From: Beijerinckiaceae bacterium RH AL1
GTDB taxonomy: Bacteria > Pseudomonadota > Alphaproteobacteria > Rhizobiales > Beijerinckiaceae
Assembly: GCA_901457705.2 (NCBI GenBank)
Contig: LR590083.2
Location: forward strand, 4,092,597 to 4,156,596
Direction: 5' to 3'
DNA length: 64,000 nucleotides
In this document: positions 24,649 through 49,019 of the stretch, one piece after another
Numbering within the stretch: position 1 is the first letter of the stretch
How the letters are laid out: the number at the start of each line of letters is the position of its first letter
Notes under the pieces: model-generated
Databases searched by the model: none
The model's input: the letters and a program-made list of their open reading frames with translations, nothing else
What the model was told of the DNA's origin: nothing
Translations under genes and position numbers: made by a program

Positions 24649-24655
24649 GTTGCAA

Positions 24656-28942: not shown

Positions 28943-31900
28943 GCGCATCATCGATCTCGCAATCAGTAAGCGGGCACTTGCGATCACGGTATTCGTGCTC
29001 GTGGGTATCTTTGGTTTCTATTCCTGGACGCAGCTCCAGGTCGAGGCCTATCCCGATATCGCCGACGTGACGTCCCAGGTGATCACCCAGGCGCCTGGTC
29101 TTGCCGCTGAAGAAGTAGAGCAGCAAATCACCGTCCCGCTTGAGCGTGAGCTGAACGGCACCCCAGGTTTGGTATCGATCCGCTCCAAGAGCACGTTCGG
29201 CCTGTCCTTGATCACGCTGGTCTTTCGAGACGGCTCCGAGGACTACTGGTCGCGGCAGCGCGTTCAGGAGCGCATCCAGAACGTTACGCTTCCGGCTGGC
29301 ATCACTGCGGGCCTCGACGATCTCACCTCGCCGATCGGCGAGATCTATCGTTACACGCTGGAATCCAAGTCCAAGACGCTTCGGCAACTCTCCGAAATTC
29401 AAAGGTGGATAGTTATTCCGGCGTTCAAGCAGGTGCCGGGTGTGGTCAACGTCAACAATTTCGGCGGCCTGACGACTCAGTTTCAGGTCGAGCTGAATCC
29501 GGACTCGTTGAACCGCTTCGGCGTCGCCTTGAAAGATGTCACGGGTGCCATCACCGCCAACACTCAGAATTCTGGCGGCAGCGTCATGAACCGCGGACAG
29601 TATGGCTACGTCATCCGTGGCATCGGTCTCGCACAAACGCTCGATGATATCGGAAATATTGTCGTCACCCAGAAGAACGGGACTCCAGTGTTCGTCCGCG
29701 ACCTGGGCGAACTAAGACTCAGCCATCAGGAGCGACACGGCATCCTCGGGAAGGACGACAACAACGACACAATTGAAGGAATCGTCCTGCTCTTGAAGGG
29801 TGAGAACCCGTCTCAGGTAATGGACAGCGTTCACGCGAAGGTTGCCGCCCTTAACGCGCAGCTTCGCACGCAGGACGTTCAACTCGTCCCATACATCGAC
29901 CGATCCGATCTCGTTCACGCCACGGTCGAGAAGGTTTCGCACACGATTATGGAGGGTGTCGGTCTCGTTCTGATTGTCTTGATCCTATTTTTAGGAAGCC
30001 CTCGCAGCGCAGTTATCGTCGCGGTCACCATTCCGCTCGCTATGGCGATTGCCTTCATCTTGATGCGGCTTACCAGCATTCCCGCAAATCTCTTGTCATT
30101 GGGGGCTATCGACTTCGGAATCATTGTCGATGGCGCCGTAGTCATGACGGAGGCGATCCTTCGTCGGCGTGAAGCCCATGCGGATCAGGCATTGACCGAG
30201 GCCGACGTTCGCCAGGCGGCTCATGAAGTCGCCCGGCCGATCTTCTTCTCGACCCTGATCATCATCACTGCCTACTTTCCGCTGTTCGCCTTTCAGCGGG
30301 TCGAAGCGAAGCTTTTCTCGCCGATGGCGTATGTGGTCGGTTACTCCTTGTTCGGGGCGCTGCTTATCGCGCTCGCGCTCATTCCAAGCCTTGCTTTCAT
30401 TGCTTATCGCAGGCCACAGCGCGTCTGGAGCAATCCAGTCCTGGGATGGTTGCGATCCCGGTACGCGAGCCTCCTCGATCGGTCGCTTAAACGCCCTCGA
30501 TTTGCTGTCGCCACGGCATTGGTCTCGGCGGCTCTCGTCGTGGTGCTCGGCTGGACCGTGGGGCGTGACTACCTTCCCCAGCTTGATGAAGGGTCCATTT
30601 GGCTTCAGGTGACGATGCCTGCGGGGATTTCGCTCGAGACGGCAACGGAAATGGCGGCCGACCTTCGTCGGGCCGTCCGACAATTCCCCGAAGTGTCCTA
30701 CGTCGTTACCCAGGACCGGTCGCAACGACGACGGGACCGATCCATTCACGCCATCGCATATCGAGGCCAGTGTCGGTTTGCGGCCTTACAGCACATGGCC
30801 GCGTGGGGAGACCAAAGCCGAGCTGATTCAGAAACTAGATGCCCGGTTTCGCCAGATGCCTGGTTTCCAGATCGGGTTCACGCAGCCGATGATCGACGGC
30901 GTGTATGATAAAATCGCGGGTGCTCACAGCCAACTGGTCGTCAAGATCTTCGGCGATGATCTTGGCGAGTTGCGGCGGATTGCGACCCAGGTTGTCTCCG
31001 CGCTTGACGCAACGCCCGGTTCCGCGGACGTTTCGATCGACCAGGAGCCGCCGCTTCCGCAAGTTGTCGTGCAAGTCGATCGAGCAGCGCTTGCGCGATA
31101 CGGCATCAATGTAAGCGATGTTTCCGACCTCATTCAGACTGGCATCGGCGGCCAAGCTGTTACCCAGCTTTTTATTGCTGACCGTCAATATGATGTGTCT
31201 GTCAGATTTCCGCAGCCGATGCGGTCCGATCCGCAAGCTATTTCGAGTCTCGTTCTGACATCGTCGACCGGCGCGAAAATACCCCTTTCGCAGGTGGCGA
31301 GTGTTCAACTGAAGTCAGGCGAAAGCACCATTGCTCACGACACGAACGCGCGCGTCATGGTCGTGAAGCTAGATTACCGTGACCGCGATCTCTCATCCTT
31401 CTTGGAGGACGCGAAAAAGCACGTCGCGGAGAGTGTGAAGTTCGACCCGAACAAATTTCGGATTGAATGGGGCGGGCAATTCGAAAATCAGCAACGGGCG
31501 GAGGTCCGGCTGCTACTGATCTTATGTCTCGTCCTTGGGGGAATGCTCGTTCTCCTCTACGCGGCATTCGCACATCTGCGTCAGGCTGTTCTCGTCCTTG
31601 GGGCTGTTCCTCTGGCCACCTTGGGCGGGCTGGTCGCACTCCACCTGACGGGTGTGACTCTCAACGTAGCTTCCGCCGTCGGGTTCATCGCGCTGTTCGG
31701 AGTGGCGGTTCAGAACAGCATCATCTTGATCGCGAATATCAATCGGATCCGTGACGACGGCGTTCGATTAGTCGACGCGGTGATCTCCGGAGCCGGCGAA
31801 AGGCTGCGGCCGGTTCTGATGACGGCCTCGGTTGCCACGCTTGGCATGTTGCCCGCGGTTCTGGCGACCGGCGTCGGCAGCGACGTCCAGAGGAGCCTCG

Positions 31901-32046
31901 CGACTGTCGTCGTCGGGGGTTTGCTGCTTACGACGCCGCTGACATTGCTGGTCCTGCCCACAGTCTACTTCGTCATCGAAAGCTGGATCGCGGCGCGTCG
32001 CCCCATCCCCGTTTCCATTGTCAGCCTGGAGGGGCAACAGTCATGA
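28935..32046 (+). pseudogene. Heavy-metal RND efflux pump (CzcA/CnrA-type), one apparent 1-bp insertion
   Basis: Start ATG 28935 (MIERIIDLAISKRALAITV). The fourth-helix signature GAIDFGIIVDGAVVMTEA carries the D-x5-D-x6-E-type proton/metal relay of divalent-cation HME pumps, unlike copper/silver CusA. The frame breaks near 30708-30712. Deleting one C gives TQDGRNDDGTDPF and links to the second half, which includes GLRPYSTWPRGETK and the second set of membrane segments, ending at 32046. The repaired protein has 1036 residues, the usual size. The stop overlaps the outer-membrane gene as ATGA. Likely exports Co, Ni, Zn or Cd if functional. Confidence 0.86.
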
Positions 32047-33575
32047 CGCACCAAATCCGGTCTCGCGACGTTTTGAATCGAGGTGCGACGGGAACGGCGC
32101 TCTTCCTGCTGGCGACGCTCGTCACAGGGTGCGCCGTAGGCCCCGACTTTCAACGTCAGCTCGCTCCTGACGTCGTGGGATATACGCCGACACCGCTGCC
32201 GAAGGTCACGGCTTCGAGCCAAGGCATCGGTGGCGCTCAGCAAAGATTCGTGGCCGATCTCGACATCCCGGGTCAATGGTGGACTCTGTTTCATTCCAAA
32301 GCACTGAATGCGTTGATCGAAGAGGGCCTGGCAAATAACCACGACATCAAGGCCGCTCTGGCAGCGCTGCGCGTGGCGAGAGAGAGTGTCAAAGCCCAAG
32401 TCGCCTCGGGCTATCCTTCCGTCACCGGCGGTGTAAACGCCAGTCGGGAAAAGGATGCGACCGGAAGCGTCGCCTCGTCGGAGGTCAATGGAGCGGCATT
32501 GTATAGCCTCTATACGGGCCAACTCAGCGTCTCCTATGTTCCGGATCTCTTTGGACTGAATCGTCGCACCGTAGAGTCGCTTGCCGCGCAAGCAGACGCT
32601 CAGCGGTTCCAGGTCGAGGCAACCTACCTCACCCTATCGTCCAACATCGTCGCTGCCGCGATCCAGGAAGCATCGCTGCGGGGACAGATCAAGGCCACGC
32701 GGGCGATCGTCGCAAGTCAGCAGGAGTCCCTGGACTTGCTGCACAAGATGAACGCTCTGGGCGAGGTCAGCGATGTTGACGTCGCGGCGCAAGAAGCGGC
32801 GCTTGCACAGACAAAAGCTACGCTGGCGCCCCTTGAGAAGCAGTTGTCGCAACAACGAGATCTGGTTGCCGCGCTGGTTGGGCGCTTCCCCAGTGATCAG
32901 CCGTCGGCGACGTTCTCCCTGAAAGACCTGGTCCTGCCGACAGAACTGCCGGTCAGCCTGCCGTCGAAGTTGGTCGACCAACGTCCCGACGTGCGCGCGG
33001 CGGAAGAAAATATGCATGCGGCGAGCGCGCAAATCGGGGTGGCTATCGCTAACCGCCTGCCAAACGTGACTCTCACCGCAAATGCAGGCCGCACGGCGAC
33101 GCAACTGAGCCAGATCTTTATACCGGGCAACGGTTATTGGGCGGTCGCATCCGCGCTGACGCAACCGATCTTTGACGCCGGAGTGCTTTTCCATCGGCAA
33201 CAAGGAGCCGAGGCGGCATACGATCAGGCCCTCGAGCAATACCGCAGCACGCTTATCACAGCCTTCCAGAACGTCGCTGACGCGTTGGTCGCGCTTCAGC
33301 ACGACGCCGATGCGTTGAAATCGAGCGTGGCGGCCGAGCGTGCGGCGGCACGGAGCCTTGAATTGGTCAAGGGCCAGCAGCGCCTTGGGGCGGTAAACTA
33401 TCTGGCTCTTCTGAGCGCCGAGCAGACCTACCAGCAGGCAAGCATCAATCTGGTGCAGGCGCAGGCGGCGCGGTTTGCGGACACGGCGGCGCTGTTCCAG
33501 GCCCTCGGCGGCGGATGGTGGAACCGCTCGGATGTCGCCTTTAATACGCAGGCGCATGACGCCGGCCGCCAATAA
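32043..33575 (+). CDS. Outer-membrane efflux channel lipoprotein (CzcC/NodT-type)
   Basis: The protein has 510 residues. The signal sequence ends in a lipobox (LATLVTGC, Cys near residue 30). Two outer-membrane-efflux repeats follow; typical pieces are WWTLFHSKALNALIEEGLANNHDIKAALAALR and LPSKLVDQRPDVRAAEENMHAASAQIGVA. It forms the TolC-like channel for the RND pump and adaptor directly upstream. Unlike those two, its frame is intact. The start overlaps the pump stop by 4 bp. Confidence 0.92.
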   Translation: MTHQIRSRDVLNRGATGTALFLLATLVTGCAVGPDFQRQLAPDVVGYTPTPLPKVTASSQGIGGAQQRFVADLDIPGQWWTLFHSKALNALIEEGLANNHDIKAALAALRVARESVKAQVASGYPSVTGGVNASREKDATGSVASSEVNGAALYSLYTGQLSVSYVPDLFGLNRRTVESLAAQADAQRFQVEATYLTLSSNIVAAAIQEASLRGQIKATRAIVASQQESLDLLHKMNALGEVSDVDVAAQEAALAQTKATLAPLEKQLSQQRDLVAALVGRFPSDQPSATFSLKDLVLPTELPVSLPSKLVDQRPDVRAAEENMHAASAQIGVAIANRLPNVTLTANAGRTATQLSQIFIPGNGYWAVASALTQPIFDAGVLFHRQQGAEAAYDQALEQYRSTLITAFQNVADALVALQHDADALKSSVAAERAAARSLELVKGQQRLGAVNYLALLSAEQTYQQASINLVQAQAARFADTAALFQALGGGWWNRSDVAFNTQAHDAGRQ

Positions 33576-33589
33576 CGGGAGACGGTCGG

Positions 33590-35320
33590 ATGTCCGGTAC
33601 ACTCATTATAATTGAGCTGGGTGGCTTTGTCGGGCTTCTGCTGTGGGGCACCCACATGGTCACGACAGGTGTCCAGCGTGGCTTTGGCGACGTGCTTCGA
33701 ATTTGGCTGGAGCACAATCTCAGGAGCCGTTGGCGGGCCTTTCTTGCCGGCATCGGTATCACCGCGCTCCTGCAGAGCAGCACCGCGACAGGCCTTATGG
33801 CTTCCGCATTCACGGCGGACGGCCTCATTGGCCTGGGGCCCGCGCTCGTGGTGATGTTGGGCGCCAATCTGGGAACAACGCTCGTCACCCAGGTGCTGTC
33901 GTTCAACGCTGGCCTCATCGGACCGCCACTGGCGCTGCTTGGCGTCATGGTTTTCCGATCGGGCGATGACGATCGCCTTCGCAATGCAGGGCAAATCGCC
34001 ATCGGCCTGGGACTCATGTTGCTGGCATTGTCCGGGATGGTGCATGAGCTTGCACCAATCGAGGACGCGCCTCTTCTGAAAAGCGTGCTCTCCGCCGTTG
34101 GCAGCGAACCGCTTCTGGCCGTTGCGGTCGCAACCATACTGACATGGGCTTGTCATTCCAGCGTCGCGGTCGTGCTGCTTGTCATTTCCTTGGCGGCGAC
34201 TCAGACGCTCTCAGTACCCGGCGCATTGGCGTTCGTTGTCGGCGCGAATATCGGAGGTACTCTGCCGGCACTTCTCGAGGCCGGCTCGCCAATCGCCCGA
34301 CGACTTCCGCTCGGCAACACGCTCATTCGGGTAGCCGGAGCGGTTGTCGCGCTGCCGCTGATATCGATTTGCGTACCACTGCTCGCGCATATCGATGCTG
34401 CGCCGTCGCGGATCGTCGTGAATTTCCACACCGCCTTCAACCTGCTCTTGGCGATCGTGTTCATTGGGCCGTCCGACTGGCTTGCCCGCTCGCTAATCCG
34501 CATCCTCCCCAATCCGCCGGCACCCAACGATCCTGGCAAACCAGTCTACCTTGAAGAAGCTGGCCTGGGCGCTGCGACGGTGGCCTTAGCCAATGCTTCG
34601 CGCGAAACGCTGCGAATGGGAGATCTCGTCGAGGCGATGCTGAAGGGCGCTTCTGACGTCTTTCAGCAGGCCGATGCTCGCCGGGCCGGGGAGATCAGTC
34701 GAATGGATCGTTCGGTCGACCGGCTCGGTGCGGCAATCCGCAGCTACTTGGCGGATCTCGGTAATGAACAGCCGCTCAGCGATGATAGCGATGGATCGCG
34801 CGTCCAAGAAATCCTGTCTGCTGTCATCAATCTCGAGCACGTCGGAGATGTCGTCGCTAACAGCCTTCTGGAATTCGCCGTCAGACGGATCAAGCGTGGA
34901 TGGCCGTTTTCGAGCGACGAGCAGAACCTGATCGCGTCGATGATCGCAGAAATACTAGAAAGCTTGCGGATTGGGCTTGCCGTGTTTCTAACGCGGGATG
35001 CTTCGCAAGCGCGACGGCTGGTCGGACGCAAGAGTTCGCTGCGCCGACTCGAAGTGCGGGCAACGGAACTTCACGTGCAGTGGCTCCGTGCTGCCGCGAC
35101 CACTGCACGCGCAGATGCTGGTGCGGGTGTTGCTCGCGTCGCCGAAGAAGGTAGCCAGTTCCTGCGGATTGTTCGAGATCTCCGCCGAGTGCATTCCCAC
35201 ATCGCGTCCTTGGCTTATCCAATCCTCAACAACATGGGCGGCGAAAGTGCCGCGCCGGCGTCGATCGGACTAGGTGACAGAGAGCTGGAGGAGTCCGAGC
35301 TTCAGAGCGAGCAAACATAA
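33590..35320 (+). CDS. Na/Pi-cotransporter family protein with C-terminal PhoU-like domain
   Basis: The protein has 576 residues. The two inverted Na/Pi repeats carry ALLQSSTATGLMASAF (about 60-75) and CHSSVAVVLLVIS (about 187-200), the usual QSS-type motifs. The second has His instead of Gln. Residues about 340-550 are helical and PhoU-like (INLEHVGDVVANSLLEF). It follows the outer-membrane channel by 14 bp and probably belongs to the same operon. Phosphate or another anion is the expected substrate; a link to metal export is not shown. Confidence 0.85.
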   Translation: MSGTLIIIELGGFVGLLLWGTHMVTTGVQRGFGDVLRIWLEHNLRSRWRAFLAGIGITALLQSSTATGLMASAFTADGLIGLGPALVVMLGANLGTTLVTQVLSFNAGLIGPPLALLGVMVFRSGDDDRLRNAGQIAIGLGLMLLALSGMVHELAPIEDAPLLKSVLSAVGSEPLLAVAVATILTWACHSSVAVVLLVISLAATQTLSVPGALAFVVGANIGGTLPALLEAGSPIARRLPLGNTLIRVAGAVVALPLISICVPLLAHIDAAPSRIVVNFHTAFNLLLAIVFIGPSDWLARSLIRILPNPPAPNDPGKPVYLEEAGLGAATVALANASRETLRMGDLVEAMLKGASDVFQQADARRAGEISRMDRSVDRLGAAIRSYLADLGNEQPLSDDSDGSRVQEILSAVINLEHVGDVVANSLLEFAVRRIKRGWPFSSDEQNLIASMIAEILESLRIGLAVFLTRDASQARRLVGRKSSLRRLEVRATELHVQWLRAAATTARADAGAGVARVAEEGSQFLRIVRDLRRVHSHIASLAYPILNNMGGESAAPASIGLGDRELEESELQSEQT

Positions 35321-35555
35321 TGGCCTTCCCGATCAGGCTGAAGCAGCGAAGCGATGGATGGGAAGGGCCAGCTCTGAAAAGCGAAGCCCGGAACGGCGGC
35401 GGCATTGGCCGTCATTGCCGCGGCGTTTCCATCACATCAGCGAAATTCGCAAGCACTGTTCCTGCCGAACGACCTCGGCCGCGTGGTGGATTCCGCACAC
35501 TCGGTGAGGCGAGCAACGGAGAACTTTGGAAATCGCTGGTCGCAAGGCAACGGAC

Positions 35556-36554
35556 ATGAAGTCGGCATCGCCCGTCGACGGTGGCCGTGGTGACGGCGCG
35601 TGTATGGTCGAGCACCGCGAGCCGACAGTCGAGGTGTTCGCGATTGGGCTCCGCGACATGAAATGGGCGCTCGTCGTCTCTCAACATCGCAGCATGCGGC
35701 AGGCCGCCGAGTCATTGAATGTGCGTCAGTCGACTTTGAGCCGGCGCCTTCGGAACTTGGAAGCGTTGCTCTGCGCCCAGCTTTTCGAGCGGACCAACGG
35801 AGGTACGCGCCCGACTGTGGCGGGCCGGGAGTTTTTGACGCGCGTTCATCATATCCTCACCGAGACAGAGACGGCATGGCGTAAGTTGCGGACATCTAGC
35901 CGCGGCGAGAGCGGCCGCCTGACCGTCGGCGTCCATGCGTCGTTTTCCACGGGAAACATGTACGCCACATTGGCGGAACATCACCAGCAATCCCCGAAGG
36001 TCGATGTCTCGACGGTTGATGGCAGCCACGACCAATTACTCTGCGCTCTTGCCAATAACGCGGTAGACGTGGCGATAATGACCGGACGCCGCGCCGGGTG
36101 GGACGATCGCGTTCTTCCGTTGTGGAGCGAGCGCGTCATCGTTGCGCTTCACGCTCAACATCCTCTCTCTCGCAAGGAAGCTGTTTTCTGGCCGGATCTC
36201 GCCGGCGAATCGATTCTAATCCCACTACGAGGACCTGGGCCGGAACTCGAACGCCTGCTAGTCACGAAGCTTGGCGATTATGGCGCTCAACGGCTCACCT
36301 ATCATGAGTCCGGGCTTGACCGTCTGCTAAGCCTCGTCGCCACAGAGCACGGAATATTGTTAATGCTCGAGGGTGCAACCGGCATTCACTGCGATCAGGT
36401 GGTTTATCGCGAAATACAGGATGGCGATGGCTCGACGCGATTGAATTTCACTGCTTACTGGCGCCAGTCGAATGCAAATCCAACACTGGCGCCATTCCTA
36501 AAGTTGCTGCGCCAACGCTACCCGGATTTATCGGGTGGGCGCCCAGCGGACTGA
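35556..36554 (+). CDS. LysR-family transcriptional regulator
   Basis: The protein has 332 residues from ATG 35556; later ATGs at 35604 and 35658 are possible. The HTH is KWALVVSQHRSMRQAAESLNVRQSTLSRRLRNLEALLCAQLFER. The rest is a LysR substrate-binding domain (GRLTVGVHASFSTGNMYATLAEHH, then SVDVAIMTG-like). It stands between the cargo and the DUF932/ParB backbone genes, and LysR genes at this position are common in trb-type elements of Hyphomicrobiales. The effector is unknown. No gene is seen in the 235 bp upstream. Confidence 0.87.
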   Translation: MKSASPVDGGRGDGACMVEHREPTVEVFAIGLRDMKWALVVSQHRSMRQAAESLNVRQSTLSRRLRNLEALLCAQLFERTNGGTRPTVAGREFLTRVHHILTETETAWRKLRTSSRGESGRLTVGVHASFSTGNMYATLAEHHQQSPKVDVSTVDGSHDQLLCALANNAVDVAIMTGRRAGWDDRVLPLWSERVIVALHAQHPLSRKEAVFWPDLAGESILIPLRGPGPELERLLVTKLGDYGAQRLTYHESGLDRLLSLVATEHGILLMLEGATGIHCDQVVYREIQDGDGSTRLNFTAYWRQSNANPTLAPFLKLLRQRYPDLSGGRPAD

Positions 36555-36866
36555 GTTGTCGGGCCCTTCTCCGTTTCGAAAAGCGATATCCGTCGCCATG
36601 AAACCGTTCGACCATCGAAGCGACTAATCTGGCCGGATCGGGAATTGTTTGGCCCGTGGCACGACCGAGCGAGTCGGTCTAGGCGATCCGCCACCAGGGC
36701 GCGCGATCGCCTAGACCTCTCTTTGGGGCGGCGCATCCGGTCCACCACGCGCATTATCTGGCGCACACGCGTCAAGCTGAGTGGGCTTGTGAAGGGGAAT
36801 GCCTTCCCCCTGGTCGGCGCCGCTGTCGCCGACACACCCCCTTCTGCGGGGAGTTCCCCGCAACGC

Positions 36867-36941
36867 CCCTTTGAGAGTGAGAGGGCGGAGGGCTTCGCCG
36901 TGACGGGTTTAAGGCTGGAGGAGAGGCCTCCAGCGCCCGTC
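36867..36941 (+). ncRNA. Structured leader 1, upstream of the DUF932 gene
   Basis: Three stems are visible. CCCTTT (36867-36872) pairs with AGAGGG (36880-36885). GACGGG (36902-36907) pairs with CCCGTC (36936-36941). Inside the latter, GCTGGAGG (36914-36921) pairs with CCTCCAGC (36927-36934). The same architecture precedes the ParB-like gene (38232-38304) with a different inner-stem sequence. The start codon lies 16 nt after the last stem in both. From memory this could belong to the radC-type leader motifs of mobile elements; I cannot verify that. Confidence 0.62.
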
Positions 36942-36956
36942 ATGGAGATTGGTCCC

Positions 36957-38150
36957 ATGAACATGCAGGTTCTCGACGCGCCCCGCGATATCAGCGGCGG
37001 CTACAAGGTGGATGTGAGTCGCGGCGAGCGGATAGGTCGCGTATCGTCGGAATGGTTCTCGCGCCCCGCCGACGAGCGCTATTTGTCGCTATCCGAGCTG
37101 GCGTGTTCCGTCCGCGATCGCGCCGATCGCAGCCGGACCCGCGTGGTGGAAAGCGCCCTTATCCATGTCGAGGCGAACCGTGGCGACGCGGAGCGGTTGG
37201 CGCTGATCCTGCCGGGCGCGGATACCCCTGTGGCGCCGACACATTGGTCCTTCGGACAGCTCGCCAGCCTGGTCGGCGCGCCGGCGGCCTATCTGCGGCA
37301 ACTTCCGGCCGCGCTCGCCGGCATCAACCTGCAATATGGCCTGACCTCCAATCGCGCCGAGCAGATCAAGACGCTCGAAACCGATACCGGGCGAGTCGAG
37401 CTGCGCGCGGTCACCGGCCCGGATTATGGCCGCATCTTCGATCATGAACTCGTCGAGGCCGTACAGCGCATCGCCGGCAATGGCACCGGCGATACCCGCT
37501 GGAAGGTCCCGGGCGTGCTCGATTGGTCGACCGGGATCTACAATCCCCGGGTCGACATCAGCAAGGACACGACGACGCTCTACGCCTCAGATCGCGACGT
37601 CTTCCTGTTCCTGGTCGACGACCTGAATCCGATCGAAGCCGGTCGCCTGCCGGACGGCTCGCCCGATTTGTACTTCCGCGGGTTCTATTGCTGGAACTCG
37701 GAAGTTGGCGCGAAGACGCTCGGCATGGCGAGCTTCTATCTCCGCGCGGTTTGCCAAAACCGAAACCTCTGGGGCGTGGAGGATTTCGAGGAGATCACCA
37801 TTCGCCACTCCAAATACGCCGCCAATCGGTTCGCGCACGAAGCAGCCCCGGCGCTGCTAAACTTCGCTAACTCCTCGCCCATGCCCTTCGTCAACGGCAT
37901 CAAGGCGGCCCGGGAGCGGATCGTGGCGCACAACGACGAGGATCGCGCTGACTTCCTGCGCCGACGCGGCTTCTCGAAGGCGGAAACCGGGAAGATCATC
38001 GACGCAGTGCTGGCCGAGGAAGGCCGCCCGCCCGAGTCCATCTTCGATTTCGTGCAGGGCATCACCGCCGTCGCCCGCAATAAGCCGCATCAGGACGCCC
38101 GCCTCGAGCTGGAAGCCAAGGCGAAGAAGCTACTCGACCGAGCCGCCTGA
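36957..38150 (+). CDS. DUF932-domain protein
   Basis: The protein has 397 residues. The central region (FGQLASLVGAPAAYLRQLPAALAGINLQYGL, then VPGVLDWSTGIYNPRVDISKDTTTLYASDRDVFLFLVDD) is the DUF932 fold common on plasmids and integrative elements. I chose ATG 36957 because it lies 16 nt after the leader stem, exactly as in the ParB-like gene, with GGAG at the same offset; an in-frame ATG at 36942 also exists. The molecular function is unknown. It is followed by a hairpin and the second leader. Confidence 0.8.
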   Translation: MNMQVLDAPRDISGGYKVDVSRGERIGRVSSEWFSRPADERYLSLSELACSVRDRADRSRTRVVESALIHVEANRGDAERLALILPGADTPVAPTHWSFGQLASLVGAPAAYLRQLPAALAGINLQYGLTSNRAEQIKTLETDTGRVELRAVTGPDYGRIFDHELVEAVQRIAGNGTGDTRWKVPGVLDWSTGIYNPRVDISKDTTTLYASDRDVFLFLVDDLNPIEAGRLPDGSPDLYFRGFYCWNSEVGAKTLGMASFYLRAVCQNRNLWGVEDFEEITIRHSKYAANRFAHEAAPALLNFANSSPMPFVNGIKAARERIVAHNDEDRADFLRRRGFSKAETGKIIDAVLAEEGRPPESIFDFVQGITAVARNKPHQDARLELEAKAKKLLDRAA

Positions 38151-38160
38151 TATCCGTGAA

Positions 38161-38190
38161 GCCGGAGACGCGGTTTTACGTGTCTCCGGC
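38161..38190 (+). terminator. Hairpin after the DUF932 gene
   Basis: GCCGGAGAC (38161-38169) pairs with GTCTCCGGC (38182-38190), a perfect 9-bp stem with a 12-nt loop, followed by TTTGCG. The T tract is short, so this may be a weak terminator or an RNA-stabilising hairpin between the two leader-controlled genes. Confidence 0.55.
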
Positions 38191-38231
38191 TTTGCGCTTC
38201 CCTGTCCGGCCCTCCGATCCGAAACGCTGCC

Positions 38232-38304
38232 CCCTTTAGAGGAAGAGGGCGCGCTTCGCTTCGTGACGGGTTTCGGTCCGAGAGAGAGTCTCTCGGCGCC
38301 CGTC
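38232..38304 (+). ncRNA. Structured leader 2, upstream of the ParB-like gene
   Basis: CCCTTT (38232-38237) pairs with AGAGGG (38244-38249). GACGGG (38265-38270) pairs with CCCGTC (38299-38304), enclosing CCGAGAGA (38278-38285) and TCTCTCGG (38289-38296). The inner stem differs from leader 1 in most positions yet still pairs fully, which is covariation. The segment GTGACGGGTTT is identical in both. The ATG lies 16 nt after CCCGTC. Confidence 0.62.
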
Positions 38305-38319
38305 GCGGAGTATATCCCG

Positions 38320-40452
38320 ATGGCTACTGCTGCTCAGAAGATCACCCTGTCGTCCTCGCGCGACATTCCCTTCAACAAGCTGGTTCTGTCCCAGTCCAAC
38401 GTCCGGCGCGTGAAGGCCGGCGTCTCGATCGAGGAACTGGCCGAGGACATCGGCCGGCGAACGCTGCTTCAAGGCTTGAGCGTCCGGCCGGTCCTCGACG
38501 CCGAGGGCGCCGAGACCGGCATGTTCGAGATCCCGGCCGGTGGCCGGCGCTACCGCGCACTCGAACTGCTGGTGAAACAGAAGCGGCTCGCCAAGACCGC
38601 GCCGGTCCCGTGCGTGGTCCGCGACCCGGGCACCGACATCCTCGCCGAGGACGACTCGCTGGCCGAGAACATCCAGCGTGCGCCGCTGCATCCGCTCGAC
38701 CAGTTCCGCGCCTTCCAGGCCCTGCGCGCGAAGGGCCGCTCCGAGGAGGACATCGCCGCGGCGTTCTTCGTCGCCGTTAATGTGGTGAAGCAGCGCTTGC
38801 GCCTCGCGTCAGTCTCGCCGGCCCTGCTGGAGGTCTACGCCGAGGACGGCATGTCGCTCGAACAGCTCATGGCCTTCACCGTCTCCGCCGATCATGCCCG
38901 CCAGGAGCAGGTCTGGCAGGCGATCTCCGGCTCCTGGCAGAAGGAGCCGTATCAGATCCGCCGCATGCTGACGGAGAAGACGGTGCGCGCCTCCGATCGC
39001 CGGGCGGTGTTCGTCGGTCTCGACGCCTATGAAGCCGCCGGCGGGGCGGTGCTGCGCGACTTGTTTCAGTCCGACGATGGCGGCTGGCTCGGAGACATCG
39101 CGTTGCTCGACGGCCTGGTGGCCGAGAGACTGAAGGCCGAGGCGGAGACGATCGCCGTCGAAGGCTGGAAGTGGATCGAGGTCGCCATCGACTTCCCCTA
39201 TGGCCACGACCGCGGGCTGCGCGCGATCGAGGGGGTCGCTGCCGACCTCACCGGCGAAGAGCAGGCGGCGATCGACGCGCTCAACGCCGAATCCGCCAAG
39301 CTCGAGGCGGAGTATGACGGCACCGATGAGCTGCCCGACGAGGTGGACGAACGCCTCGGCGAGATCGAGACCGCGCTCGCCGCCTTCGACGATCGGCCGG
39401 TCACCTACGATCCGGCCGACATCGCCCGCGCCGGCGTCTTCGTCAGCATCGACGCTGATGGCGCGTTGTCGGTCGACCGCGGATACGTGCGGCCGCTGGA
39501 CGAGGCGCCGGTGGGCGAACCGGAGCAGGACGGCGAGACCGATCCCGCCACGGTCGGGACGAGCCACGCCGATCCGGACGCGCCTGCGGTTCAGCGCGCC
39601 GTGATCACCATCGGCGGCCAGATCGCCGGGCCGGAGGATGAGGACGACGAAGACCTCAAGCCCTTGCCCGACCGCTTGGTGACCGAGCTGACGGCCGAGC
39701 GGACCCTGGCGCTGCGCGACAAGCTGGCGACCACGCCCGCCGTCGCGTTCCAGGCCGTGCTGCACAAGTTCTGCCTCGACGCCTTCTCGCGTTACTTCAG
39801 CTACGGGACGGCAATGGAGGTGACGGTGCGCACCGTGAGCTTCCCAGTGCAGGCGCAGGGCTTGAAGGACACGCTTGCGGCCAAGGCGATCGACGCCCGC
39901 CACGAGGCTTGGGAGGAACGGCTGCCCAAGGATAAGTCCGCTCTCTGGGACTGGCTCACCACGCTCACCGGCGACGACCAGGCCGCGCTGTTCGCCCATT
40001 GCGCCTCCTTCGGGGTCAATGCGCTCTACGAGAAGGGCGACCGCTACGGCGCGGGTGTCTCGTCCCACACCGTCGAACAGCGCATCGCCGATGCCGATCG
40101 CCTGGCCCGGGCCGTCGATCTCGACCTGGTGCAGGCCGGCTGGCGTCCGACCGTCGAGAACTATCTTGGCCGCGTGCCCAAGCGTCGAATCCTCGAAGCG
40201 GTGCAGGAGGGGGCCGGCGAGCGGGCGGCGCAGCTCATCGACCATCTGAAGAAGCCTGACATGGCCAAGGAGGCCGAACGGCTCCTGGCCAACACCGGCT
40301 GGCTGCCCGAACCGCTGCGGATCGACGCCACCGACGATGCGCCGGGCGAAACGGCCGACGAGGGCGAGGCGCTACCCGAATTCCTCGCGGACGACGACGA
40401 GGAAGCGCCCGCCGAGGACGCAGACGCGCCGCAGGTCATCGCGGCCGAATAG
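38320..40452 (+). CDS. ParB/RepB/Spo0J-family protein
   Basis: The protein has 710 residues. The N-terminal ParB domain (about 15-110) contains SNVRRVKAGVSIEELAEDIGRRTLLQGLSVRP, EIPAGGRRYRAL and the box SLAENIQRAPLHPLDQFRAF. A KorB-like HTH follows (IAAAFFVAVNVVKQRLRLASVSP). The long C-terminal part includes acidic stretches (about 365-470 and the end) that are not in chromosomal ParB. No parA gene is seen, so it is more likely a mobile-element ParB-like nuclease or regulator than a classical partition protein. A structured leader precedes it. Confidence 0.85.
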   Translation: MATAAQKITLSSSRDIPFNKLVLSQSNVRRVKAGVSIEELAEDIGRRTLLQGLSVRPVLDAEGAETGMFEIPAGGRRYRALELLVKQKRLAKTAPVPCVVRDPGTDILAEDDSLAENIQRAPLHPLDQFRAFQALRAKGRSEEDIAAAFFVAVNVVKQRLRLASVSPALLEVYAEDGMSLEQLMAFTVSADHARQEQVWQAISGSWQKEPYQIRRMLTEKTVRASDRRAVFVGLDAYEAAGGAVLRDLFQSDDGGWLGDIALLDGLVAERLKAEAETIAVEGWKWIEVAIDFPYGHDRGLRAIEGVAADLTGEEQAAIDALNAESAKLEAEYDGTDELPDEVDERLGEIETALAAFDDRPVTYDPADIARAGVFVSIDADGALSVDRGYVRPLDEAPVGEPEQDGETDPATVGTSHADPDAPAVQRAVITIGGQIAGPEDEDDEDLKPLPDRLVTELTAERTLALRDKLATTPAVAFQAVLHKFCLDAFSRYFSYGTAMEVTVRTVSFPVQAQGLKDTLAAKAIDARHEAWEERLPKDKSALWDWLTTLTGDDQAALFAHCASFGVNALYEKGDRYGAGVSSHTVEQRIADADRLARAVDLDLVQAGWRPTVENYLGRVPKRRILEAVQEGAGERAAQLIDHLKKPDMAKEAERLLANTGWLPEPLRIDATDDAPGETADEGEALPEFLADDDEEAPAEDADAPQVIAAE

Positions 40453-40511
40453 CCCGCGTGCGGGGCGGCTTCGGCCGTCCCGCGCCTCTTTCCCTTTCAA
40501 CCGACCCGACA

Positions 40512-40531
40512 GCCCGGCCGTCGCGCCGGGC
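40512..40531 (+). terminator. Hairpin with T-rich tail ahead of the DUF6878 gene
   Basis: GCCCGGC (40512-40518) pairs with GCCGGGC (40525-40531), followed by ATTTTCGTTT. It ends only about 10 nt before the AGGAGA ribosome site of the next gene. It may act as an intrinsic terminator for the ParB-like transcript or as a leader attenuator. Confidence 0.6.
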
Positions 40532-40553
40532 ATTTTCGTTTCAGGAGACTGTC

Positions 40554-41033
40554 ATGACCGATACATCCGACATCACATCGCAACCCGCCGCACCGCTTTC
40601 CGACTGGGAGATGAAGGCGTTTGCCCGAGCCAAGCTCGAGGCCGAGCTTTTCACCCTCAACAAGGCCACGCTGCTCAACGCACTGACGCTCGCCGGCGTC
40701 ACCCGCGTTGTCGTCAGCTTCGACGGCTATGGCGATTCCGGCCAGATTGAGAACGTCGAAGCTCAGACCGGCCACGATCCCGTCACCATGCCTTCCGCGG
40801 CCATCGAGATCGCCGAAGCCGTCTGGGACCAAGCCGAACCGAAGCGTTCGTCCGTCAGCATCGCCGAAGCCGTCGAGAGCCTGGCCTATGACGTTCTCGG
40901 AAGGACCCATTGTGGCTGGGAGAACAACGACGGCGCTTACGGCGACGTCATCTTCGACACCGAGGAGGAGACGATCACGCTCGACTACAACGAGCGCTAC
41001 ACCGCCTCCGAAAACTACACTCACACCTTCTGA
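40554..41033 (+). CDS. DUF6878-family protein
   Basis: The protein has 159 residues. It contains WEMKAFARAKLEAELFTLNKATLLNALTLAGVTRVVVSFDGYGDSGQIE and a C-terminal YDVLGRTHCGWENNDGAYGDVIFDTEEETITLDYNERYT, which I associate with DUF6878 of integrative elements. The ATG at 40554 has AGGAGA upstream. It is soluble and acidic; the function is unknown. It precedes the truncated DUF6915 gene by 10 bp, the usual gene pair in such elements. Confidence 0.75.
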   Translation: MTDTSDITSQPAAPLSDWEMKAFARAKLEAELFTLNKATLLNALTLAGVTRVVVSFDGYGDSGQIENVEAQTGHDPVTMPSAAIEIAEAVWDQAEPKRSSVSIAEAVESLAYDVLGRTHCGWENNDGAYGDVIFDTEEETITLDYNERYTASENYTHTF

Positions 41034-41043
41034 GGAGGCGGCC

Positions 41044-41340
41044 ATGGGACACTGCTATCACCACGCCCTCTCCTCGGTCAGGAAATGGGGCGGCGTCGCT
41101 GAAGACTATCTGCCGCTGCATCAATGGTTCGATGAGTCGAAGGCAATCACCGCCGACTTCCGGCATCGGGCGCTGCGGCATCACGCCGAAGGCATCTTCA
41201 TGCTGGAGCGCTTCTTCGGCCCGACGATCACCATTTCGACGGGCCGCGTCGTTCCGGTGCGCCTGATCGGCGAGCAGCACGTCATCGAGGATCTCGGATT
41301 CATTCCAAGCTGTCAATCGGCTCGCAATGTTGACCCCTGA
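41044..41340 (+). pseudogene. DUF6915-family protein, truncated by IS21
   Basis: The frame begins at ATG 41044 with GAGGAGG upstream. It encodes MGHCYHHALSSVRKWGGVAEDYLPLHQWFDESK and then RHHAEGIFMLERFFG. After 89 native codons (VIEDLGFIPS) it runs into the end of the IS21-family element at 41311 and stops nine codons later. Family members normally continue with a tryptophan-rich C-terminus. The missing end is not found on the other side of the IS, which shows a deletion. Confidence 0.8.
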
Positions 41341-41456
41341 TCGGCGTCCAACTTTGACCCCTCTGTTGCCGCTTGCACGGGCGCTTCAGTAGCGCTCGCC
41401 CCGGCGTAAGCTGGTCGGGGTTGCGGAGCCGGGGCGAGCGCGGTCCCAAGCCCCCT

Positions 41457-42197
41457 TCAGCCTCGGTTCTTGAAGCGCCAGCTCTCGTTGCCGGTCTCGA
41501 CGATGTCGCAGTGGTGGGTGAGGCGATCGAGCAGCGCTGTGGTCATTTTGGCGTCGCCGAAGACGCTGGGCCATTCGCCGAAGGCGAGGTTGGTGGTGAC
41601 CATGACCGAGGTGCGCTCGTAGAGGCGGCTGATCAGGTGGAACAGCAGCTGGCCGCCGCTCTGCGCAAAGGGAAGGTAGCCGAGTTCGTCGAGGATGACG
41701 AAGTCCATGCGGGTGAGATAGTCCGCAAGGCGTCCTTGACGACCTGCGCGGGTCTCGGCCTCGAGCCTGTTGACGAGATCGAGCGTGTTGAAGAAGCGGC
41801 CGCGTTTGCCGGCACGGATGCAGCTGCGGGCGATCGCTATCGCGAGGTGGGTCTTGCCGGTACCGGTGCCGCCGACGAGCACGCAGTTGCGCTGCTCGGC
41901 GATGAAGTGGCCGCCGGCAAGATCGCGCACGAGGACCTCGTTGATCGGCGTGCCGACGAAGGCGAAGTCGGCGACGTCCTTGGCGAGCGGCAGCCGGGCA
42001 ATCGTCATCTGGTACTTGATGGATCGGGCCAGCTTCTCGTCGATCTCGGCCTTGAGCAGGTCGCCGACGAGGCGCTGGGGCTCGTGCTGGCGCTTGACGG
42101 CGGTGGTGACGATCTCGTCGAAGGCCGAGCGCATGCCGAAGAGCTTGAGCGAGCCCATCATGTCGAGGATGTCGGTGCGTTCCAGTAGACGTTCCAT
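41457..42197 (-). CDS. istB: IS21-family helper ATPase IstB
   Basis: The protein has 246 residues of the DnaC/IstB AAA+ type. It has [22 protein letters not shown] at the start, Walker [16 protein letters not shown] and Walker [14 protein letters not shown]. It regulates transposition together with IstA. The gene follows istA by 77 bp and is complete. Confidence 0.94.
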
Positions 42198-42274
42198 GGG
42201 TCAGATCCTTCTGAGGCTGTCGTAGCGGGCACAATCGGCGATCGGCGCATGGCGGAGGGTCAGCGCGTCCGGCG

Positions 42275-43695
42275 TCATGATGGTGATCGGCGGCGCGGGT
42301 CGCGCTGCCGCGAGACGATGTTGATGATGACGTCGGCAGACGAGACGCCCTCGATCAGCGCCTCCGCGCAGGCGCTCTCGACCGCCTGCAGGCCGTCGCT
42401 GAGCACCATGGCGAGGATCTTCGCCATCTGCCGGTCGCCGTCGTCGGAGCCGGCGAGCTTGCGGCGAATGCGATCGATCGCCTGCGGCAGCACCCAGTCC
42501 TTGAACGGGGCGCCGTTGCGCAGCGCACCGGGCTTGCGGGCGAGGACCGGCACGTAGTGCCAGGGATCGCAGATGGTCGCGCCGCGGCCGAAGACGCGGC
42601 TATGCTCGGCGACGATGCGGCCGTCCTGGCGGATCACCACGCGGTCGGCATACGCCTGGATCTCGACGGGTCGTCCGACGGCGCTGGCGCTGACCGAGTA
42701 CTTGTTGTTGTCGAAGCGCACGAGGCAGGTCTTCGAGACCGATGCCGGTAGCGCATGGAAGCCGTCGAACCGGCCGGCGTGGCGCACGAGGTGCGGGCGC
42801 TCGGCCTCGAACATCTCCCACACCGTTCGGTCGGTCTGCTCGGGATGGGGGTGCGCCTTGGCATAGGCAACGCACCGGTCGAGCAGCATGCCGTTCAGCT
42901 CGTCGTAGCTCTTCACGCGCAGCCGAGGCGTGAAGAAGCGCTCGCGGACAAGCCCGACCTGGTTCTCGACTTGCCCCTTCTCCCAGCCCGACGCCGGCGT
43001 GCAGGCGACGGGTTCGACGAGATGGTGCGCACACATCTGCAGGAAGCGCCGATTGTAGCCGCGGTCCTTGCCGACGAGGATCGTCTCGACCGCCGTCTTC
43101 ATGTTGTCGTAGATGCCGCGCCTGCAGGCTCCCTTGAAGAAGGCGAAGGCCCGGTCGTGCGCGTCGAAGACCATCTCCTGGCTCTCGCGCGGATAGGCTC
43201 GGACGAACATCATGCGGCTGTGACAGAGCCGGACGTGCGCCACCTTCACGGTCGTCGTCGCGCCACCGATCAGCACGATGTCGTGGCTCCAGTCGAACTG
43301 GAACGCCTCTCCCGGCGCGAAGGCCAGCGGCACATAGGCTTCCGCGCTCGCCGCCGCGTGCCCTTTGCCCAGACCCTGGCATAGCGGCGCACCGCATCGT
43401 AGCCGCCCTCGTAGCCGAGCGCCCGCAGCTCCTCGAAGACCCGGATCAGCGTGAGGCGCTCCCGCGCCGCCTTCGTCGCGTTGCGGGCGAGCATCGCCTC
43501 GAGATCGGTCTTCCAGCGCCCGAGCTTGGGCCGCGGCTGCACCTCGCGCTCGTAAGCAAACGAGGTCTCGCCCGAGCGCAGCACCTTGCGCACCGTGTTG
43601 CGCGAGATCTTCAGGTCGCGGGCGATCTCTTTGATCGACTTGCCCTTGACCAGATGCTCCCGCCGTATCCGGCCGACCGTCTCCACAACCAACAT
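42275..43695 (-). pseudogene. istA: IS21-family transposase IstA, one apparent 1-bp deletion
   Basis: From ATG 43695 the frame encodes the HTH (KSIKEIARDLKISRNTVRKVLRSG) up to RVWAKG. The rve catalytic part (LAFAPGEAFQFDWSHDIVLI, then RGIYDNMKTAVETI and GWEKGQVENQVGLVRERFF) is in another frame ending at 42275. Adding one G to a GGG run near 43361-43363 gives RVWAKGHAAASAEAYVPLAF and 473 residues. Either the IS is now inactive or this is an assembly error. Confidence 0.88.
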
Positions 43696-43807
43696 CCCCG
43701 CCGCCCGCCCGCCGTCAAAACGGACAGCGCAACAGGCCAAGATTAAGGGGTCAGTTTTGGACGCCGATCACCCCGATAAGGGGGTCAGTTTTGCAGGCCG
43801 AAACACA

Positions 43808-43868
43808 CTTCGCGGCGTCGAGCTTCTTCCTGACCTTCTTCAGCTTCTCGGGCGGGGCGCTGGTCTGA
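43808..43868 (+). pseudogene. trbC: trbC (VirB2-like pilin) C-terminal remnant
   Basis: Immediately after the IS21 end the frame reads FAASSFFLTFFSFSGGALV and stops at TGA 43866-43868, overlapping the trbD ATG (TGATG). This matches the conserved C-terminus of TrbC pilins. The upstream three quarters are missing. The remnant shows that the trb cluster once extended further upstream. Confidence 0.75.
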
Positions 43869-44143
43869 TGGCCGCGATCGTCGATCCCGATGTGCCGGGC
43901 TTCTTCGCGCCGGTCCATCGCGCGCTGACCGACCCGATCCTCATGGGCGGCGCGCCGCGGACCGTGGCGATCGCCAACGGCACGATCGCGGCGGCAGTGG
44001 CACTCGGCCTTCGGCTCTGGATTCCGGGCGCCCTGTTCTGGGCGGTGGGCCACGCCGCGGCGGTCTGGGCCGCCAAGCGCGATCCGCTATTCGTCGACGT
44101 TGTGCGCCGCCACCTCCGCTATCCCGCTCATCTGGGCGTGTGA
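43868..44143 (+). CDS. trbD: TrbD, VirB3-like mating-pore protein
   Basis: The protein has 91 residues: PGFFAPVHRALTDPILMGGAPRTVAIANGTIAAAVALGLRLW is the VirB3-type start with one or two membrane segments, ending KRDPLFVDVVRRHLRYPAHL. It is the inner-membrane partner of the TrbE ATPase in the type IV secretion channel. The ATG overlaps the trbC stop, and trbE follows after 7 bp. It may be poorly expressed now that its own promoter region is gone. Confidence 0.88.
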   Translation: MAAIVDPDVPGFFAPVHRALTDPILMGGAPRTVAIANGTIAAAVALGLRLWIPGALFWAVGHAAAVWAAKRDPLFVDVVRRHLRYPAHLGV

Positions 44144-44150
44144 GGCCACG

Positions 44151-46589
44151 ATGCTGAACCTCGCCGAATATCGCAATCGCCCCGCCGGCCTCGCCGACTT
44201 CCTGCCCTGGGCCGCGCTCGTTGAAGAGGGCGTGGTCCTGAACAAGGATGGGTCATTCCAGCGCACCGCGCGCTTTCGCGGGCCAGACCTCGACAGCGCC
44301 ACGCCGGCCGAGCTGGTCGGCGTCACCGCGCGCCTCAACAATGCCCTGCGTCGCCTCGGCTCCGGCTGGGCGATCTTCGTCGAAGCCCAACGGATCGCCG
44401 CGCAGACTTATCCGCACTCGACCTTTTCCGATCCGGCGTCCGCGCTGGTCGATCTCGAACGGCAGGACGCGTTCGAGGAAGCGGGCGCGCATTTCGAGAG
44501 CCGCTACTTCCTGACCTTCGTCTGGCTTCCGCCCGCGGAAGACGCTTCCCGTATTGAGAGCTGGCTCTACGAGGGCCGCGCCCAGACCGGCGTCGATCCC
44601 TGGGAGCTGATGCGGGGCTTCGTCGATCGGACCAACCGTGTGCTGCAACTTGTCGAAGGCTTCATGCCAGAAGTCGGTTGGCTCGATGACGGCGAGACGC
44701 TGACCTACCTGCACTCCACCATCTCGACGCGGCAGCAGCGCGTCCGCGTCCCAGAGACGCCGATGCACCTCGATGCGCTTCTCGCAGATGAGCCGCTCGC
44801 GGGCGGTCTCGAGCCGCGGCTTGGCTCGCACCACTTACGCACACTGACCATCGTCGGCTTCCCGACCGCGACCCACCCCGGAATCCTCGATGAGATGAAC
44901 CGGCTGGCCTTTCCGTACCGCTGGTCCACGCGCGCGGTCCTGCTCGACAAGACCGAAGCGGTGAAGCTGCTGACCAAGATCCGGCGGCAGTGGTTTGCCA
45001 AGCGCAAGTCCATCGCCGCCATCGTCAAGGAGGTGATGACCAACGAAGCGTCGACGCTCGTCGACTCCGACGCAGCCAACAAAGCTGCCGACGCCGACAT
45101 GGCGCTGCAGGAATTGGGCACAGACGATGTCGGTCAAGCCTATGTCACCGCCACCGTCACCGTCTGGGACGAAGACGCGGGTCTCGCCGCCGAGAAGCTC
45201 CGGCTGGTCGAGAAGGTGATCCAGGGTCGCGACTTCACCTGCATGCCCGAAGGGGTGAATGCGCTCGAGGCCTGGCTCGGGTCCATCCCCGGCCATGCCT
45301 ACGCCAACGTCCGCCAGCCGCCGGTCTCCACCCTAAACCTGGCGCACATGATCCCGCTTTCCGCCGTCTGGGCCGGGCCAACGACGGACGAGCATTTCCG
45401 CAGCGCCCCGCTGCTGTTCGGCAAGACCGAAGGCTCGACGCCGTTCCGGCTGAGCCTGCACGTAGGCGATGTCGGCCACACGCTGATCGTCGGCCCGACT
45501 GGCGCCGGCAAGTCGGTGCTGCTGTCGCTGATGGCGATGCAGTTCCGCCGCTACCGCAACAATCAGATTTTTGCGTTCGATTTCGGCGGCTCGATCCGCA
45601 CCGCCGCGCTCGCGATGGGCGGAGACTGGCACGATCTCGGCGGCAGCCTGTCCGCCGGATCGGAGCATTCCGTCTCCCTGCAACCTCTCGCGCGGATCGA
45701 CGAACAGGCCGAGCGCGCCTGGGCGGCCGAGTGGGTTGCGGCGATCCTCGCGAAGGAAGGCGTCAGCATCGATCCGACCGCCAAGGAGCATGTCTGGTCG
45801 GCGCTGACATCGCTGGCCTCTTCTCCAGTAGGCGAGCGCACCATCACGGGCCTCGCGGTCCTGCTGCAGTCGACCGCGCTGAAGCAGGCGCTTCAACCCT
45901 ACTGCGTGGGTGGGCCCTCCGGCCGGCTCCTCGATGCGGAGACGGAGCAGCTCGGCTCTGCCTCGGTACAGGCCTTCGAGACCGAAGGCTTGATCGGCGC
46001 CGGCGCGGCCCCCGCCCTGCTGACCTACCTGTTCCACCGCATCGAGGGCCGCCTCGACGGTCGTCCGACCTTGCTCATCATCGACGAGGGCTGGCTGGTT
46101 CTCGACGATCCCGCCTTCGCCCAGCAGCTGCGCGAGTGGCTGAAGACGCTGCGCAAGAAGAACGCCTCCGTCATCTTCGCCACCCAGTCGCTCTCCGACA
46201 TCGACGGCAGCAACATCGCGCCGGCCATCGTCGAGAGCTGCCCAACGCGCATCTTCCTGCCGAACGAGCGCGCGATCGAGCCGCAGATCACCGCAATCTA
46301 TCGGCGCTTCGGATTGAACGATCGCCAGATCGAAATCCTCGCCCGCGCAACCCCAAAGCGCGACTACTACTGCCAGTCGCGGCGCGGCAACCGGCTGTTC
46401 GAGCTGGGGCTCGGTCCTATCGCGCTCGCCTTTTGCGCGGCGTCGTCCAAGGCCGATCACGCGGCAATCGAGCGGGTCACCGCCGAATATGGCCGCGACG
46501 CCTTCACGCCGACCTGGCTCGCCGACCGGGAGCTTTTGTGGGCCGCCGATCTCATCCCCGAGCTGACCAACCTGGAGACGTCATCATGA
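44151..46589 (+). CDS. trbE: TrbE, VirB4-like conjugal transfer ATPase
   Basis: The protein has 812 residues, a full length for TrbE. The N-terminal CagE/VirB4 domain begins MLNLAEYRNRPAGLADFLPWAALVEEGVVLNKDGSF. Walker A GPTGAGKSVL is near residue 447 and Walker B LLIIDEGWLVL near 641, with a later ATQSLSDIDGS. It powers assembly of the mating pore. The ATG at 44151 is favoured over upstream starts that lie inside trbD. The stop overlaps trbJ as ATGA. The frame is intact despite loss of upstream transfer genes. Confidence 0.93.
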   Translation: MLNLAEYRNRPAGLADFLPWAALVEEGVVLNKDGSFQRTARFRGPDLDSATPAELVGVTARLNNALRRLGSGWAIFVEAQRIAAQTYPHSTFSDPASALVDLERQDAFEEAGAHFESRYFLTFVWLPPAEDASRIESWLYEGRAQTGVDPWELMRGFVDRTNRVLQLVEGFMPEVGWLDDGETLTYLHSTISTRQQRVRVPETPMHLDALLADEPLAGGLEPRLGSHHLRTLTIVGFPTATHPGILDEMNRLAFPYRWSTRAVLLDKTEAVKLLTKIRRQWFAKRKSIAAIVKEVMTNEASTLVDSDAANKAADADMALQELGTDDVGQAYVTATVTVWDEDAGLAAEKLRLVEKVIQGRDFTCMPEGVNALEAWLGSIPGHAYANVRQPPVSTLNLAHMIPLSAVWAGPTTDEHFRSAPLLFGKTEGSTPFRLSLHVGDVGHTLIVGPTGAGKSVLLSLMAMQFRRYRNNQIFAFDFGGSIRTAALAMGGDWHDLGGSLSAGSEHSVSLQPLARIDEQAERAWAAEWVAAILAKEGVSIDPTAKEHVWSALTSLASSPVGERTITGLAVLLQSTALKQALQPYCVGGPSGRLLDAETEQLGSASVQAFETEGLIGAGAAPALLTYLFHRIEGRLDGRPTLLIIDEGWLVLDDPAFAQQLREWLKTLRKKNASVIFATQSLSDIDGSNIAPAIVESCPTRIFLPNERAIEPQITAIYRRFGLNDRQIEILARATPKRDYYCQSRRGNRLFELGLGPIALAFCAASSKADHAAIERVTAEYGRDAFTPTWLADRELLWAADLIPELTNLETSS

Positions 46590-47323: not shown

Positions 47324-47332
47324 GGCGCGGCG

Positions 47333-47659
47333 ATGCTGGGCAGGTCGGACACTTTCCGCGTCGTCGCGATCATCGCGTTGATCGCCGTCGTGGTCGTGAG
47401 CCTGGTCGCAATCAATCGGCGGCCTACGCCGCCGGTGATCGAGACGCCTTCGACCGCCCCAAGCCCAGCATCCGATGACCTTTCGGCCGAGTTGCGCCGC
47501 TGCGGCGTGCTCGGTCCGCAGGACGCCGAGGACGCGCGCTGTGTGGCGGTGTGGGAGGAAAACCGTCGGCGCTTCTTCGGCCGGCCGGCGCGGTCGCTGC
47601 CACCAACGCCCCCGGGCGCGGCTGCGCCGGCCACCAATACTGCGGGAGATGCGCGATGA
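47333..47659 (+). CDS. TrbK-alt-type entry-exclusion-like protein
   Basis: The protein has 108 residues. One N-terminal membrane segment (VVAIIALIAVVVVSLVAI) is followed by a Pro-rich linker, a small domain with two Cys (ELRRCGVLGPQDAEDARCVAVWEENRRRFFG) and a disordered tail. This layout matches the putative entry-exclusion protein TrbK-alt found between trbJ and trbL. The stop overlaps trbL as ATGA. Function is inferred from position. Confidence 0.8.
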   Translation: MLGRSDTFRVVAIIALIAVVVVSLVAINRRPTPPVIETPSTAPSPASDDLSAELRRCGVLGPQDAEDARCVAVWEENRRRFFGRPARSLPPTPPGAAAPATNTAGDAR

Positions 47660-49017: not shown

Positions 49018-49019
49018 AC

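Follow-up and report, generated by a model that had tools for sequence, protein, structure and literature searches.

The window, the whole stretch of 64,000 nucleotides from Beijerinckiaceae bacterium RH AL1 that was analysed, carries in its middle part a DUF932-type gene, named from homologues annotated DUF932, and a ParB-like gene, each preceded by a structured leader. Judging from the sequence, both leaders probably belong to an integrative conjugative element that ends at tRNA-Arg. A 33-bp direct repeat flanks this element, with the second copy at the end of tRNA-Arg, and the two genes lie in the middle of it. The main features of the element are:

12855..52546, integrative conjugative element (probable)
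12855-12887 and 52514-52546, the two copies of the 33-bp direct repeat
13080-14438, integrase, in the element
36957..38150, plus strand, DUF932-type gene, 397 aa
38159..38192, plus strand, terminator-like hairpin AAGCCGGAGAC...GTCTCCGGCTT, between DUF932 and the ParB-like leader
38320..40452, plus strand, ParB-like gene, 710 aa (Pfam ParB_N, E 3.7e-6)
about 43.6-52.0 kb, T4SS genes, with VirB3, TraG-like, CagX and TrbI identified

The DUF932-type protein of the window has no match of its own in Pfam or NCBIfam. Elsewhere in the window, two minus-strand reading frames at 41457-43740, between a DUF6878 gene and the T4SS genes, resemble by eye an IS21-type IstB/IstA pair, and on the second contig a similar sequence breaks up the ParB-like gene near L115:2300. 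The frame of an AcrB-type efflux pump (28860-32046) is split into the overlapping frames 28860-30908 and 30778-32046, perhaps by a frameshift. At 52878-52902, about 290 bp past the tRNA, lies a 25-bp partial copy of the tRNA-Arg gene, perhaps the remnant of another integration.

The two leaders, which we call type I, are built as follows, all on the plus strand; their scores against our covariance model R1 are those of sequences that both belong to its 84 training sequences.

36852..36956, type I leader RNA of the DUF932 gene (R1 match 36853-36947, 95.7 bits, E 2.1e-20)
36874..36883, 5' purine element AGAGTGAGAG of the DUF932 leader, in columns nearly invariant in the 84-sequence alignment
36884..36899, candidate competing hairpin GGCG/CGCC of the DUF932 leader, a putative alternative fold with GGN/NCC covariation in DUF932 leaders
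36902..36941, main hairpin of the DUF932 leader, from covariation and sequence
36902-36907/36936-36941, its outer stem GACGGG/CCCGTC
36914-36921/36927-36934, its inner stem GCTGGAGG/CCTCCAGC
36922-36926, its loop AGAGG
36944..36947, Shine-Dalgarno GGAG of the DUF932 leader, predicted to pair with the strand 5' of the outer stem
38215..38319, type I leader RNA of the ParB-like gene (R1 match 38217-38310, 81.4 bits, E 5e-17)
38231..38250, 5' hairpin CCC(C)CTTT/AGAGGG of the ParB-like leader, containing AGAGGAAGAG (38238-38247)
38265..38304, main hairpin of the ParB-like leader, from sequence and covariation
38265-38270/38299-38304, its outer stem GACGGG/CCCGTC
38278-38284/38290-38296, its inner stem CCGAGAG(A)/(T)CTCTCGG, or 38278-38285/38289-38296 with the bracketed pair
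38285-38289, its loop AGAGT
38307..38310, Shine-Dalgarno GGAG of the ParB-like leader, predicted to be almost fully paired

The original prediction, made from the letters alone, had described both leaders with their outer and inner stems, and the sequence check locates them as described. GTGACGGGTTT is identical in the two, and in each the first base of the start codon (36957 and 38320) is the 16th past the end of the last stem, again as claimed. The inner stems differ in sequence while pairing is kept, which is borne out at both sites and, as compensatory change, in the 84 leaders. The prediction had also given the leaders a third common stem, CCCTTT/AGAGGG; both window copies form it, yet many DUF932 leaders lack it and retain only the sequence AGAGnnAGAG, the long hairpin being kept in ParB-like leaders. 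Absent from that description is an outward extension of the pairing past the outer stem, which takes in GGAG in both leaders. The pattern GTGACGGGTTT...GCCCGTC has no occurrence in the genome besides the two window leaders.

Both leaders fold more stably than shuffled sequence, the DUF932 leader at -55.0 kcal/mol (z -5.2) and the ParB-like leader at -50.6 kcal/mol (z -3.6), with none of 200 dinucleotide shuffles as good in either case. Another conserved sequence, with the hairpin CTTCTGCGGGG...CCCCGCAACGCCCC, precedes the DUF932 leader at 36820-36870 of the window and upstream in many relatives. The GTG of GTGACGGG was considered as the start of a short upstream reading frame and set aside, as its stop and length are not conserved. 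ATGGAG was rejected as an upstream in-frame DUF932 start, since relatives differ in whether it lies in frame with the annotated one.

For comparison, 80 loci from many alphaproteobacterial groups were fetched by similarity of the DUF932 protein (84-94% identity), with no use of the RNA. The hairpin lies immediately before the DUF932 start codon in all 80, and most have a second leader copy before the ParB-like gene. Since the loci were selected by protein similarity, common ancestry of the cassette accounts for part of the sequence conservation; despite this, the stems vary widely among them. For 84 non-redundant leaders RNAalifold places 16 pairs, nine with changes on both sides. Paired cells amount to 95.6% against 92.0 +/- 0.3 in shuffled alignments, double-change cells to 88 against 31 +/- 7 (0 of 500 shuffles as high), and the covariation score to 0.345 against 0.271. 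These pairing values drop sharply when the 3' partners are shifted by one to three columns, a control biased in favour of the structure because the latter was taken from the same alignment. The double changes of the inner stem (e.g., A-U 34/G-C 31; G-C 38/G-U 23/A-U 21) are independent of that bias. On the coding strand the structure contains 216 G-U cells against 29 A-C cells, which argues that the constraint acts on the mRNA strand and not on template-strand DNA.

The conserved core consists of the 5' AGAGnnAGAG, the outer stem GACGGG/CCCGUC, the inner stem with its AGAGN loop, and GGAG paired at the base of the hairpin. Within it the AGAG positions are nearly invariant and the stems variable; the DUF932 leaders of sphingomonads have lost one pair near the Shine-Dalgarno sequence. 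Compensatory changes and a fixed place before start codons, by which cis-acting structured mRNA leaders are generally recognised, were both found. Based on this comparison, which gives the structure, the position and the gene set alike, the leaders are almost certainly structured cis-acting RNAs. The original prediction had argued as much, and the covariance search on which it had staked the claim brought in further members with compensatory changes.

Covariance model R1 was built from the 84 leaders and recovers its training loci by construction. Among 337 alphaproteobacterial genomes sampled, it finds members in 28, one of them the genome of the window, and in a phylum-wide sample weighted to relatives all of the matches listed fall in Alphaproteobacteria. 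Besides the genes already named, type I leaders precede genes for ArdC (many cases), RadC and DUF2958, which had no part in building the model. A further ParB-like gene, on the second contig of the window's genome, is preceded by a third copy of the leader. That one leader type precedes several different genes of one element is what the coordination of these genes, proposed in the original prediction, would lead one to expect. A search of a phage collection gave no match to the region. In several Bradyrhizobium loci (L066:8690, L077:8687, L068:2758) the ParB-like frame is shortened or degenerate and the leader is kept. At L085:8369 a type I leader stands before a 305-aa protein with no Pfam match that by eye looks like a PAPS-reductase-like/adenine nucleotide alpha hydrolase protein, and at L129:22516 and L127:2849 leaders precede proteins of 333 aa and 89 aa, likewise with no Pfam match, which are candidate new establishment genes.

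Weak R1 matches, all on the gene strand, led to a second leader type. Type II has the layout AGAGnnAGAG ... GAGAGAGAGCG ... CGCUCUC, followed by a Shine-Dalgarno sequence and ATG, and precedes strawberry-notch helicases and ArdB. With a model of its own, it turns up in 18 of the 35 genomes with type I and in 0 of the 20 without; on annotated plasmids it lies a few kilobases from type I copies. As the two types have AGAG motifs in common and cross-match weakly, they look like branches of one regulon. The pairing predicted near the Shine-Dalgarno sequence is different in type II, which makes occlusion of that sequence a weaker model there.

Given that the same RNA family stands before antirestriction and DNA-handling genes of ICEs and plasmids across Alphaproteobacteria, the leaders probably share a role as a translational switch; that it is driven by a putative AGAG-binding factor is the reading we favour, with moderate confidence. 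In the ground state the outer stem would be extended, GGAG base-paired and initiation low. Occlusion of this kind is predicted by folding: the mean unpaired probability of GGAG is 0.19 in DUF932 leaders and 0.15 in ParB-like leaders, and shuffling the upstream sequence raises these to 0.41 and 0.34 (paired p = 6e-12). For the window leaders the values are 0.27 against 0.45 in shuffles (DUF932) and 0.01 against 0.28 (ParB-like). The predicted occlusion is partial in many DUF932 leaders, with 29 of 50 under 0.2.

Upstream, a second hairpin may compete for the anti-Shine-Dalgarno strand, and its formation would free GGAG. In the DUF932 leader, the 3' arm of the candidate hairpin is the very strand otherwise paired with the Shine-Dalgarno sequence. 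Among DUF932 leaders the anti-Shine-Dalgarno triplet covaries with an upstream triplet (TCC with GGA in 18 of 22, GCC with GGC in 9 of 10), moderate evidence that suggests a competing hairpin and thus a two-state switch; the register of this hairpin shifts between lineages. Because the AGAG motifs are invariant and unpaired, they suggest a binding partner. We propose that those of the 5' AGAGnnAGAG and of the apical AGAGN loop are binding sites of a factor acting in trans, in the simplest case an RNA-binding protein, which would favour one of the two states. One such factor could jointly set the expression of all leader-bearing genes, for example by keeping it low in a cell where the element is established and lifting this block once the element enters another cell, which would let conjugation time the switch. 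Among possible partners, DUF736 was rejected as obligatory regulator, since 8 of 35 genomes with the leader lack it. So was an antisense RNA of the element carrying CUCUnnCUCU, as the 34 sites outside leaders in 1.45 Mb are near chance and mostly coding.

The transcriptional context brings in a different possibility, processive antitermination, in which the nascent RNA would modify RNA polymerase so that it reads through the terminator after each gene and joins separately terminated genes in one transcript. The put RNA of phage HK022 is such an RNA, modifying RNA polymerase for terminator read-through. The terminator-like hairpin after DUF932, ahead of the ParB-like leader, fits this scheme in being conserved in many relatives by sequence comparison; it has a short T-run, and the consensus scan did not call it. 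Of 34 type II leaders, 18 have a similar hairpin about 18 nt upstream, as do 13 of 200 random sites. A sigma-70 search found no promoter-like site in window 36500-38400, and in relatives sigma-70 promoters are not enriched between the upstream terminator-like hairpins and the leaders. Either the promoters are atypical or transcription runs through the upstream hairpins. Since no recognisable promoter follows these hairpins, antitermination is kept as the leading rival, but we consider it unlikely: the element sits at each start codon with the Shine-Dalgarno sequence built into the stem, neither of which antitermination needs, and a processive mechanism could make do with one copy, whereas here every gene has its own.

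Predicted occlusion of the Shine-Dalgarno sequence by a helix, together with the competing hairpin, would equally suit a direct sensor, that is, a small-molecule riboswitch or an RNA thermometer that opens the helix with no protein or RNA partner. Such a sensor is distinctly unlikely here, as the conserved unpaired positions are short repeated AGAG motifs only, with no junction-like aptamer core, and the inner stem, stable and rich in G+C, is not of the kind typical of thermometers.

Single-stranded DNA promoters of the Frpo/ssi type, hairpins in the transferred strand from which host RNA polymerase would express establishment genes while the second strand is still to be made, came into question because the gene set (antirestriction, ArdC, RadC) is that of leading regions (PMC11541004) and because ArdC is needed in the recipient, as reported in PMC7213743. 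No ordinary promoter is recognised, and in annotated plasmids the cluster adjoins the TraG/TraD/TraC-TraA region and points towards it. Yet the hairpin of such a promoter has to form in the template strand, and there each of the 216 G-U pairs turns into an A-C mismatch; moreover the hairpin has no -35/-10-like elements and holds the Shine-Dalgarno sequence inside its base, which leaves this explanation very improbable. Scarcely credible, finally, is the idea that the leaders work purely as DNA, as a palindromic operator bound by a dimeric repressor: inverted repeats that recur at the same spot ahead of several genes would suit it, but the conserved loop and purine element are asymmetric and always in gene orientation, G-U wobbles are in excess, and the sequence of the inner stem changes freely while pairing is kept.

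The switching on of the establishment genes of conjugative elements in a new host is understood mainly through single-stranded DNA promoters and through repressors left behind when the DNA is transferred. An RNA family predicted to hide the ribosome-binding site of establishment genes points to a third, post-transcriptional route. Tentatively, the two related leader classes with their common AGAG motifs might constitute a dedicated post-transcriptional establishment regulon, in which one putative factor would act on antirestriction, ParB-like, helicase and DNA-processing genes across Alphaproteobacteria, an RNA-level zygotic induction; this broader proposal is possible and less secure than the switch itself. 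The covariance model lets further members of the regulon be found, including unknown genes beside antirestriction factors, and the leader marks which unknown genes of these elements belong to the establishment set. The constant AGAG motifs offer a direct handle for pulling down the factor.

The leaders are a real, widespread and apparently undescribed RNA family, for which the mechanism modelled above is plausible. In the open literature (subscription journals being outside the search) we found no description of the leader sequences or of a leader of these genes. Rfam, including the radC motif, had been named in the original prediction as the place to look, and a scan at gathering and permissive thresholds gave no family match at the window leaders or in 13 further loci. 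A match to skipping-rope was dismissed as chance level, at 15.8 bits against a cut-off of 36.7. The radC motif model (RF01754) gave no match above cut-off in 18 leader-bearing genomes, and none of the weak matches listed is at a leader. The motif, from the work of Weinberg et al. in 2010, reportedly precedes radC, antirestriction and other DNA-handling genes. In gene context the leaders resemble it, preceding RadC, ArdC, ArdB, DUF932 and helicase genes, but the radC model is 149 positions long and the leader model 96. Like the leaders, the radC RNA motif (RF01754, PMC2864571) is presumed to be a cis-regulatory RNA in proteobacteria.

Other known elements are likewise alike in setting and different in build. 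The STAXI motif is found near antirestriction, SSB, topoisomerase and integrase genes, and whether it acts as RNA or single-stranded DNA was debated (PMC2864571); it consists of two to three tandem pseudoknots (PMC2864571), whereas the leaders are a nested hairpin adjoining the start codon. The Frpo/ssi promoters (Samuel et al. 2024, PMC11541004) are, like the leaders, repeated hairpins before anti-defence genes of conjugative elements. They are, however, DNA hairpins with -35/-10 elements on the transferred strand (PMC11541004), whereas the leaders have an mRNA-strand structure and no promoter elements. The EGeRS1 sequences of pLS20-family plasmids, which are conserved and contain inverted repeats, precede several establishment operons, ardC among them (Val-Calvo et al. 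2021, PMC8708921). EGeRS1 spans 400-600 bp in Bacillus plasmids, whereas the leaders are about 100 nt long, occur in Alphaproteobacteria and lie at the Shine-Dalgarno sequence; not in sequence or size but in function, EGeRS1 (PMC8708921) offers a parallel to the leaders.
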